This document shows, piece after piece, positions 45,969 through 48,977 of a stretch of 64,000 nt of DNA. A program made the translations under genes and the position numbers. The DNA comes from Acidimicrobiales bacterium (GTDB lineage: Bacteria; Actinomycetota; Acidimicrobiia; Acidimicrobiales; Acidimicrobilacustridaceae). Location of the stretch: contig JALOLR010000008.1 of NCBI GenBank assembly GCA_025455885.1, positions 186,001 through 250,000 of the forward strand. The letters are read 5' to 3'. Below the pieces are notes generated by a model, which made no database searches, was not told where the DNA came from, and saw only the letters and a list, made by a program, of their open reading frames with translations. Position 1 is the stretch's first letter, and the number at the start of each line of letters is the position of its first letter.

Positions 45969-46964
45969 TCACTCCATGAACATCACCCGGAGGTGATCGA
46001 ACGACTCGATGCAGTGCCCGGCACCGAGCACCACCGACTCCAAGGGGAGCTCGACGAGGTGCACCGGGATGTCGGTCTCGGCCTCGAGGCGCAGGTCGAG
46101 GCCGCGCAGCATGCCACCGCCGCCGACGAGGTGGATGCCCTGGCCGATGAGGTCCTGGGCCAACTCCGGCGGCGCGTGGCCGAGGCAGGCGATGACGGCG
46201 TCGACCATCGCCGACACCGGCTCCTCGATGGCGTCGCGCACCTCCTCGGCGGTGAGGATCACCGTCTTGGGCAGGCCGCTCATCAGTTCCCGCCCCCGCA
46301 CCTCGGCGGCGAACTCGTTCTCCGTCGGCCACGCCGAACCGATGGTGACCTTGATCTCCTCGGCCGTGCGCTCCCCGATGGCGATCCCGTACTCACGACG
46401 GATGTAGGTCTGGATGGCGGCGTCGATGTCGAAGCTGCCCACCCGCACGGCCTCGAGGGCGACGACGCCCCCGAGGGAGATGAGCGCCACCTCCGACGTG
46501 CCGCCGCCGATGTCGATGACCATGTTGCCGAGCGGCTCGTTGATGGGCAGGCCCGATCCGATGGCGGCCGCCATGGGCTGCTCGATGAGGTGGGCCTCCG
46601 CGGCCCCCGCCCGCCGGGCGGCCTCCGTCACGGCCCGCTGCTCGACGGCGGTGATCGCCGACGGCACGCAGATCACCACCCGGGGACGGTTGAACCGGTT
46701 CACCCCGACGCGCTGCAACAGCAGGCGGATCATCCGCTGCGTCACCTCGAAGTCGGTGATCGCGCCCTTGCGCAGCGGCCGCACAGCGACGATGTAGCTG
46801 GGGGTCCGCCCGATCATCTGCCACGCCTCGTGGCCCATGGCCAGGACGTCCTGGGTGCGGCTGTTGAGGGCGATCACCGAGGGCTCGTTCAACACGATGC
46901 CCTCGCCGCGCACGTAGACGAGCGTGTTCGCCGTCCCGAGGTCGATGGCGAGGTCGCGGGCCAG
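45969..46964 (-). CDS. mreB: Rod-shape actin homologue MreB, apparent CTG start
   Basis: A 331-aa MreB. The family N-terminus ARDLAIDLGTANTLVYVRGE (phosphate 1 loop) is encoded, then IALNSRTQDVLAMGHEA, PSAITAVEQRAV, MVIDIGGGTSEVALISLGG (phosphate 2) and IHLVGGGGMLRGL (adenosine). No ATG, GTG or TTG lies in frame between the previous in-frame stop and this N-terminus; the codon at the family start is CTG (46964-46962), with GGAGG 9 bases upstream. The first GTG (46913) would delete the phosphate loop. It polymerises under the membrane to direct wall growth. No mreC/mreD nearby. Confidence 0.9.
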   Translation of the reverse strand: MARDLAIDLGTANTLVYVRGEGIVLNEPSVIALNSRTQDVLAMGHEAWQMIGRTPSYIVAVRPLRKGAITDFEVTQRMIRLLLQRVGVNRFNRPRVVICVPSAITAVEQRAVTEAARRAGAAEAHLIEQPMAAAIGSGLPINEPLGNMVIDIGGGTSEVALISLGGVVALEAVRVGSFDIDAAIQTYIRREYGIAIGERTAEEIKVTIGSAWPTENEFAAEVRGRELMSGLPKTVILTAEEVRDAIEEPVSAMVDAVIACLGHAPPELAQDLIGQGIHLVGGGGMLRGLDLRLEAETDIPVHLVELPLESVVLGAGHCIESFDHLRVMFME

Positions 46965-46966
46965 GG

Positions 46967-47242
46967 CTACCGCCCTCCGCCCTGCTCGTCGGCGCCCTCA
47001 GGGGCCCGACGACGCGACGAGGGCGGGGGGACGCGACTGGGAGGGGGCCCCACCGGCCGCGGCCGGCCGGTCCGGCGGCCGCTCCCCGGTTCCTGGGGAT
47101 CACGGCCGAGCGCCCGCATCTCCTCCTGGAACTCGTCGACGCTCGACATGAACGTGGTCGGCTTGCGGTGACGGAGCCACAGCACGAGCGAGCCGAGCAC
47201 GGTGATCACCACCACGATCAGGAGGAAGGCGACGTTGCTCAC
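46967..47242 (-). CDS. Small single-pass membrane protein with disordered basic tail
   Basis: A 91-aa protein: GTG start at 47242, one membrane helix (NVAFLLIVVVITVLGSLVLW), a conserved-looking FMSSVDEFQEEMRAL segment, then a Pro/Arg-rich tail. The FxxSVDeFrrem pattern occurs in small actinobacterial proteins next to cell-shape genes. Its start overlaps the moaE stop (GTGA) and its stop lies 2 bases before the mreB CTG codon, so mreB may be translated by coupling to it. Confidence 0.75.
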   Translation of the reverse strand: MSNVAFLLIVVVITVLGSLVLWLRHRKPTTFMSSVDEFQEEMRALGRDPQEPGSGRRTGRPRPVGPPPSRVPPPSSRRRAPEGADEQGGGR

Positions 47243-47724
47243 CGAGGCTCCCCCACCGCGGCCACCGAGGGGACTTCGGTGATGTGCTGCGCGGCCCGGG
47301 CCCACGACGAGCCCCCCGCCCAGTGCTCCTTCTTCCAGATCGGCACGGTGGCCTTGAGCGTGTCGATGCAGAACTCGGCGGCCGCGAAGGCGGCACCACG
47401 GTGAGGCGCGGAGACGGCGACCACCACCGACGACTCGCTGAGGGCGACGGTCCCCTCACGGTGCCACAACACGACCCGCCCGAGGTCGGGCCACCGCGTC
47501 CGCGCCTCGGCGGCCACCGCGGCCAGGCGCGGCTCGACCTGCTCGGCCCACGCCTCGTAGTCGATGTGGGTGACATCGACGGTGCCCTCGGCGTGGTCGC
47601 GCACCAGGCCGCTGAACACCACCACGGCACCGCAGTCCGGGCGGGCGACCCACCCCGTCGCGGCGGCCACGTCGAGGTCCTCGGCGGTGAGCGCCACCCA
47701 GTCGTCGGCGTCGGGGGTCGGCAT
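47239..47724 (-). CDS. moaE: Molybdopterin synthase catalytic subunit MoaE
   Basis: A 161-aa MoaE. It transfers sulphur to precursor Z to make molybdopterin, with MoaD as donor. Visible motifs: GAVVVFSGLVRDHAEG (~33), LDYEAW-type HIDYEAWAEQVEPRL, VVLWHREGTVALSESSVVVA, SAPHRGAAFAAAEFCIDTLK, and VPIWKKEHW with the catalytic lysines. ATG 47724. It converges on nothing; it is divergent from the HtrA-like gene. No moaD or other moa gene is present in the window. Confidence 0.92.
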   Translation of the reverse strand: MPTPDADDWVALTAEDLDVAAATGWVARPDCGAVVVFSGLVRDHAEGTVDVTHIDYEAWAEQVEPRLAAVAAEARTRWPDLGRVVLWHREGTVALSESSVVVAVSAPHRGAAFAAAEFCIDTLKATVPIWKKEHWAGGSSWARAAQHITEVPSVAAVGEPR

Positions 47725-47789
47725 CGGCACGAGCGCATCGTAGTGGGGCGCGTCCAACGATCCGGGTGTCACCGGTACGCTCCGCGCCC

Positions 47790-48977
47790 ATGTCGCCCGA
47801 GGACGAGCCCGAGGACGCGGACGGGTTCCAACCTCCCCTCCCCGCGGAGGACCGGCTCTGGCGACACCCCTCCGAGCTGGGTTCCCCCGCCGTCGCGTCG
47901 CCCGCACCGACGACCCGGACCGGCCGGCGCCGCCCCCGCGCCGCCCTGGTCGCCTCCGGGCTGGTCGTCGTCCTGGGCGCCCTCGCCGCCGCCGGGGCGC
48001 TGGCGACGAGCGGGTCGCCGGGCACCACGACGGGCGTCGCCGCTTCCCCACGCGACGAGGCCATCGCCGCGCTCGGCCCGGCCGTCGCCCGCCTCGACGC
48101 CCGGCGCGACGGCGTGCCCACCACGGCCACCGCCGTCGTGTACCGCGCCGACGGCCACCTGCTCACCGCCGCCGAGGCGGTGGAGGAGGTCACCGACCCG
48201 ACCGTCACCCTGGCCGACGGTCGCGTCCTCCCCGCGACCGTCGTCGGCGCCGACCCGGTGAGCGGCATCGCCGTCGTCCGCGTCGAGGCCACCGACCTCG
48301 TCCCCGCCCCGCTGCAGACCGACGAGCCGGTCGAGGCCGGCGCCCCGGCGCTCGCCGTCGCCCATCGCCCCGACGACGTCGAGTCGCCCGCCTCGGGCCA
48401 GGGCCGCATCACCGGCACCGGATGGAAGGTGGGCAGCGGCGACGCCGCCCGTCACGACCTCATCCGCACGGTCCTCGGCACCCCCGCCGACACCTCGGGG
48501 GCCCTGCTGTGCGACGAGACCGGCGCCGTCCTCGGGGTGTTCCTCCCCGAAGGTGACGTCACCCCCGCGTCGACCGACCCGTCCGGTGACCCGCCGACCA
48601 CGACCCGGGTCACCTCGACCGACGAGCACTTCGCCGTGCCGATCGCCATGGCCGTCCGGGCCGCCGACGACCTGGTGACCACCGGCCGGGCCCGCTACGG
48701 GTGGCTGGGGCTGAGCGGCACCGACCTCGGGGTCGCGGCCGAGGCACCCGGTCCGGCCGGGACCCGGGTGACGGCGGTGTCGCCCGGAGGTCCCGCCGAC
48801 GTCGCCGGTCTGCGCCCCGGCGACGTCGTGACGACCGTCGACGGCGCCGCGGTGCGATCGATGTCGGAGCTGGCCTCGACCATCCGCCACCACCGTCCGG
48901 GCGACACCGTCACGATCACGGTCCGCCGCGACGGCGAGGACCTCCGCGTCGCGGTCGTCCTCTCCGACCGGCCCTGA
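47790..48977 (+). CDS. HtrA-like membrane-anchored PDZ protein lacking a normal catalytic triad
   Basis: A 395-aa protein: disordered cytosolic segment (with LWRHPSELG), one membrane helix (~52-70), a chymotrypsin-like domain (~90-290) and a C-terminal PDZ domain (RVTAVSPGGPADVAGLRPGD). The trypsin-like core is degenerate: where HtrA has T(N)AHV this protein has LLTAAEAVEEV (no His), the DPxxDLAV strand reads DPVSGIAVV (no Asp), and the GNSGGP loop reads ADTSGALL. It is therefore probably a pseudoprotease that binds peptides. ATG 47790. Confidence 0.85.
   Translation: MSPEDEPEDADGFQPPLPAEDRLWRHPSELGSPAVASPAPTTRTGRRRPRAALVASGLVVVLGALAAAGALATSGSPGTTTGVAASPRDEAIAALGPAVARLDARRDGVPTTATAVVYRADGHLLTAAEAVEEVTDPTVTLADGRVLPATVVGADPVSGIAVVRVEATDLVPAPLQTDEPVEAGAPALAVAHRPDDVESPASGQGRITGTGWKVGSGDAARHDLIRTVLGTPADTSGALLCDETGAVLGVFLPEGDVTPASTDPSGDPPTTTRVTSTDEHFAVPIAMAVRAADDLVTTGRARYGWLGLSGTDLGVAAEAPGPAGTRVTAVSPGGPADVAGLRPGDVVTTVDGAAVRSMSELASTIRHHRPGDTVTITVRRDGEDLRVAVVLSDRP

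Follow-up and report, generated by a model that had tools for sequence, protein, structure and literature searches.

A probable CTG start codon in an orphan mreB paralogue recurs across the Acidimicrobiales

The window analysed here, a stretch of 64,000 nucleotides (contig 8, positions 186001–250000) from an Acidimicrobiales genome of 33 contigs and 3.29 Mb, carries on its minus strand a gene of the MreB family preceded by a small gene and a moaE frame (Table 1). The MreB-family gene has no mreC or mreD after it and sits between the small gene and a frame that resembles an ABC transporter by eye. A second full-length MreB, 58% identical to the window protein, is encoded on contig 1 in the order ndk-mreB-mreC-mreD (the ndk-, mreC- and mreD-like frames were recognised by eye), with ATG and GTG codons available in its start region. 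Since the canonical mreB therefore lies elsewhere in the genome, the window gene is an orphan paralogue, which we call mreB2, and the first-pass annotation, which took it for mreB, an essential gene, is not supported in this respect. That annotation had placed the gene at 45969–46985; the gene was rightly recognised and its end was not, the coding sequence being 45969–46964.

Table 1. Positions in the window of the features discussed in the text
Feature	Position	Strand	Remarks
mreB2, MreB-family paralogue	45969..46964	-	331 codons from the predicted CTG start, then stop codon
Predicted CTG start codon of mreB2	46962..46964	-	From the sequence and the start column in relatives
TAG, stop of upstream small gene	46967..46969	-	2 nt 5' of the mreB2 CTG
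GGAGG, Shine-Dalgarno-like	46974..46978	-	9 nt 5' of the mreB2 CTG
In-frame TGA closing the mreB2 frame upstream	46998..47000	-	12 codons 5' of the CTG
GTG, residue 18	46911..46913	-	First in-frame ATG/GTG/TTG downstream of the mreB2 CTG
Gln129 codon CAG	46578..46580	-	Place of catalytic Glu140 of Caulobacter MreB
Small single-pass membrane protein, ~91 aa	46967..47242	-	Probably starts at GTG 47242, sharing GTGA with the moaE stop
moaE frame, molybdopterin synthase catalytic subunit	47239..48051	-	PF02391, E 1.3e-34, scanned from 47949 down
Single initiator tRNA identified in the genome	14031-14107	-	CAU, GGG/CCC anticodon stem; inside the window

The MreB2 protein matched the families NF010539 (E 1.2e-133), PF06723 (E 1.9e-128, 428.4 bits) and TIGR00904 (415.8 bits, cut-off 365.75). 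It resembles Caulobacter MreB (4CZE/4CZJ) over its whole length and shares with it the phosphate loop DLGTANT and the T-X-E part of the active site. Unlike canonical MreB, it is encoded at an orphan locus behind the genes for MoaE and a small membrane protein, is without an N-terminal extension before the first strand, and has Gln129 where Caulobacter MreB has Glu140, a placement consistent with the spacing of 27 to the active-site Thr. Glu140 positions the attacking water, according to PMC4051119. Gln occupies this place in all 104 MreB2 proteins of the order examined (94 by pattern, 10 by eye), and the canonical copies of the window's genome and of its genus mate keep Glu. PMC9597168 puts the E...T-X-[D/E] catalytic motif in 95.8% of non-Spiroplasma MreBs and describes a Gln (Q137) at the catalytic-Glu place of actin, so that ATPase activity of MreB2 is uncertain and not excluded. 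Judged from its sequence, MreB2 is thus a member of the MreB/Mbl family with an incomplete catalytic motif, from which canonical function does not follow. Spiroplasma MreB3 is likewise a paralogue with a changed catalytic Glu position; according to PMC9597168 it has Asp there and has also lost T167 and E169, whereas MreB2 has Gln and keeps the T and the E.

Translation of mreB2 almost certainly starts at CTG, as far as can be read from DNA. This CTG is the codon directly before the conserved ARDLAIDLGTANTLVY, and, as had been proposed from the window's letters alone, it lies 9 nt behind a GGAGG in a frame that holds no ATG, GTG or TTG between the closing TGA (47000–46998) and the GTG at 46913–46911. 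Both points stand, the CTG being borne out also by the start column in relatives. A start at GTG 46913, which sits past the phosphate loop, would remove residues 1–17 including DLGTANT.

The recurrence of the codon in relatives, which the first-pass annotation had named as a check, is broad. We read 222 mreB2 loci and retained 172 that were distinct by 120 bases around the start, the window's locus included; they were pooled from three overlapping draws with genomes shared between two collections, and kinship among them is uneven. Their start column holds CTG in 75, ATG in 60, GTG in 27 and TTG in 7, with ATA, ATC and ACG once each. All 172 thus have a start or near-cognate start codon there; CTG is the commonest among the loci read, and ordinary starts make up 94. 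CTC, CTT, CTA and TTA were found in none of the 172, and because no leucine synonyms besides TTG appear, the column is not an internal leucine codon. The ATA and ATC genomes start mreB2 with the very codons that infC uses in this order (see below).

Among the nearest genomes (62 loci from 59 of 61 genomes, no mreB2 locus having been taken from G057 and G058), CTG was found in 21 of 62, including the other genome of the genus, in which the leader differs. A set of 80 named loci, drawn partly from the same genomes and consisting of metagenome bins titled mostly Acidimicrobiales, Acidimicrobiia, Acidimicrobiaceae or Actinomycetota, with a few Microthrixaceae/Candidatus Microthrix, yielded ATG 32, CTG 30, GTG 13, TTG 4 and ATA 1. 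The further draw took the best-scoring matches listed for the order, from 67 new genera and 13 more species of sampled genera; 79 of its 80 loci were readable by pattern (CTG 35, ATG 24, GTG 15, TTG 3, ATC 1, ACG 1), and the remaining one (L191), ATG by eye, is counted among the 172. CTG starts occurred in 32 of the 67 new genera. Elsewhere in the class, 4 of 16 readable mreB2-type loci have CTG (L328, L332, L345, L348) and the other 12 have ATG, GTG and TTG four times each, all by eye; a locus cut at its start (L347) and one of canonical type (L353) stand outside these 16. No CTG was seen by eye in 8 mreB2-like loci from outside the class.

Translation might instead begin elsewhere: further upstream, or downstream at GTG 46913, which would yield a truncated protein. 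No ordinary start codon of the window gene comes earlier in frame than this GTG, and some relatives do offer upstream candidates: among the 78 near-cognate loci, 53 have a closing stop and, from there to the phosphate loop, no ATG, GTG or TTG, and 6 show no ordinary start codon up to the sequence edge, while 19 have some in-frame ATG, GTG or TTG, 18 of them upstream. These upstream codons are scattered, however, from 3 to 171 codons away, and the window's own frame closes 12 codons upstream. In the downstream column 21 of the 172 loci have GTG and 4 have ATG, so it cannot be a conserved start, quite apart from the loss of DLGTANT that it would entail. We regard a start at either place as very improbable. 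In a draft of 33 contigs one could suspect gene decay or a mistake in base calling or assembly, and a sequencing error had been named at the outset as an alternative that would undo the CTG. The genus mate has CTG behind its different leader, CTG recurs across the order in many families from other assemblies, among them two single-contig genomes (G111 and G152), and MreB2 is 97% identical to the genus mate's protein with its frame open over the full length; this excludes a sequencing error and leaves error or decay in general with a negligible chance. Equally far-fetched is a dedicated initiator tRNA that reads CTG through a CAG anticodon: among 43 tRNA matches in the genome we found none, and nothing else to support one. 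The sole CAG tRNA found is an ordinary tRNA-Leu, and only one of the three CAU tRNAs has the initiator GGG/CCC stem. With one CAU initiator and no CAG initiator among these matches, we infer that the ordinary initiator would start on CUG by mismatch.

Well-characterised bacterial genes whose conserved start is none of ATG, GTG and TTG are, to our knowledge, few, namely infC and Streptomyces sigR. We compared the mreB2 start column with the starts of four ordinary genes of the order and, as a positive control for conserved near-cognate starts, with infC, a gene that uses noncanonical starts; the loci read were 30 of 39 DnaK matches, 30 of 40 RuvC, 30 of 43 CoaE matches over the cut-off and 30 of 39 infC genomes. 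DnaK starts with ATG in 30 of 30. For canonical mreB the start region and not the exact start was read; in all 41 readable loci an ATG, GTG or TTG precedes the motif by no more than 30 codons, one of the 42 (L313) having missed the pattern. An ordinary codon stands at the usual start place of RuvC in 28 of 29 loci (a wrong-frame match, L395, was left out of the 30 rows) and of CoaE in 29 of 30, the exception (L424) having GTT there and an ATG 3 codons upstream; neither gene has CTG. All 29 readable infC loci show ATA or ATC at the start place, although 7 of them also offer an ordinary in-frame start codon further up (L273 of the 30 missed the pattern). In the window's genome the infC codon (L275, G000:C25:17820-18326) is ATA. 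These codons are apparently the classical IF3 autoregulatory start. CTG in 75 of 172 mreB2 loci against 0 of 130 in the four control genes gives a Fisher p of 9e-23, with kinship ignored. mreB2 thus stands apart from the four ordinary genes and beside infC. Separately, one ruvC locus (L398, in G042) carries ATC where the start is usually found, and a GTG lies 10 codons upstream of it; this ATC may be another near-cognate start.

The surroundings of the start are also conserved. The idea that mreB2 is translationally coupled to the gene before it, raised for the window from the 2-base spacing, fits the relatives: in 153 of 172 loci an open upstream frame ends no more than 10 nt from the start, although the test is a mechanical one and DNA of this kind often has long open frames. 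Such stops accompany 66 of 75 CTG, 53 of 60 ATG, 25 of 27 GTG, 6 of 7 TTG and 3 of 3 other starts, and are thus as common with ATG as with CTG. The conserved small protein is stronger evidence for the context. Scanned from 47230 down, the window's copy has no match in Pfam or NCBIfam; a profile seeded from twelve of the same 131 loci to which it was applied, these being the loci with enough upstream sequence (some of them from outside the order), matches with E below 1e-3 in 115 of them. The profile describes one hydrophobic segment and, after it, a short pattern around R-x-R-x-P...S-I-x-x-F...A-L. Of the 131 loci, 109 have the C-terminal motif of MoaE no more than 1.6 kb upstream of mreB2. 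The small protein is a possible membrane partner of MreB2.

We propose that a weak, coupled, IF3-sensitive CUG start keeps MreB2 scarce, a reading to which we assign a probability of roughly 0.6. mreB2 would be the downstream one of two coupled cistrons: after finishing the small-protein gene a few bases away, ribosomes would initiate at CUG with the ordinary CAU initiator tRNA, helped by the Shine-Dalgarno sequence. CUG would pair poorly with this tRNA and belong to the kind of codon that IF3 rejects. Initiator tRNA complexes are less stable on CUG than on AUG, GUG or UUG, according to PMC11497404. MreB2 output would consequently be low relative to that of the membrane partner and of the main MreB, and might rise when IF3 is scarce.

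A reading that competes with this proposal accepts CTG as the true start and denies it any regulatory role, coupled reinitiation and a fair Shine-Dalgarno sequence making the first base matter little; we hold this possible, though on balance doubtful. Neutral drift among CTG, GTG, ATG and TTG in GC-rich genomes is a serious explanation and the main rival to regulation, and several observations favour it. Upstream stops within 10 nt are similarly frequent across CTG, ATG, GTG and TTG loci. CTG is commoner in GC-rich mreB2 genes (33 of 61 at a GC of 0.66 or more, against 11 of 43 below), and those 11 of 43 weaken GC content as the only driver of CTG. In a quick tree of 104 mreB2 proteins, in which 41 of 96 inner branches are poorly supported and the direction of changes is not readable, near-cognate and ordinary starts interchanged at least 16 times. 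On the other side, the same tree gives a mean of 34 changes (minimum 28) over 200 label shuffles, so the near-cognate state clings to clades and appears to have been inherited over long spans, yet flipped repeatedly. Moreover, RuvC and CoaE, genes of the same order with a fixed start, show no CTG, and canonical mreB needs none; as the control genes were chosen without regard to coupling, this answers drift only in part. Shine-Dalgarno strength had seemed a further argument for compensation. A match of at least 5 nt precedes 41 of 75 CTG starts and 17 of 94 ATG, GTG or TTG starts (Fisher p 7.7e-7, uncorrected for kinship), but under kinship control 6 independent pairs remain, with a median p of 1, too few to decide, and the stronger match is weakened as proof. 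Given ordinary starts in 94 of 172 loci and at least 16 interchanges, a weak start is not required everywhere.

Compared with the known systems, the proposed weak start of mreB2 shares with infC a codon outside ATG, GTG and TTG that is kept across a large clade. It differs in being mostly CTG, in alternating with ordinary starts and in belonging to a gene that encodes no translation factor, and IF3 control of mreB2 is what our proposal would add. Like mreB2, sigR is actinobacterial and has a conserved noncanonical start, and PMC5472188 describes a good Shine-Dalgarno sequence for it, repression of its GTC start by IF3, and a weak start by which the level of its product is set against that of the neighbouring gene. 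It differs from mreB2 in its codon, for which PMC5472188 gives no evidence in other actinobacterial genera, and in position, sigR being the first gene of its pair whereas mreB2 comes after its small neighbour. No ordinary start offers itself as an alternative to CTG in the window's mreB2, and the near-cognate state of mreB2 clusters on the tree without being universal.

A bolder version of the proposal would make the IF3-sensitive CUG start an order-wide device, by which a falling ratio of IF3 to ribosomes would raise MreB2 and change the rod machinery, MreB2 being a slow or stable, Gln-bearing MreB tied to the small membrane partner. We consider this version unlikely; if true, IF3-responsive MreB2 would link the fidelity of translation initiation directly to cell shape.

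The CTG start suggests that the dose of a bacterial actin is controlled, and mreB2 offers a natural series of CTG, ATG, GTG, TTG, ATA, ATC and ACG forms on which the choice of start codons can be studied. Gene finders limited to ATG, GTG and TTG may cut off the ATP-binding loop of MreB2. Searches of open-access PubMed Central found no earlier report of an mreB CTG start or of an Acidimicrobiia MreB, and among the 15 listed of 170 matches on MreB and noncanonical starts none contains the word MreB; this is weak evidence of absence. mreB2 itself may be dispensable, since a search of 298 genomes of the order gave matches with E 1e-140 or better in 222 and none at that level in 76.

Two further observations concern individual genomes. 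In one genome (G052) mreB2 is present twice, on separate contigs, and each copy (L058 and L059) has CTG in the start column. In five public metagenome bins, three titled Bifidobacterium breve (L085, L096, L100) and two Acidobacteria/Acidobacteriota (L089, L112), mreB2 is 81–94% identical to that of the window, so the labels of these bins look wrong.
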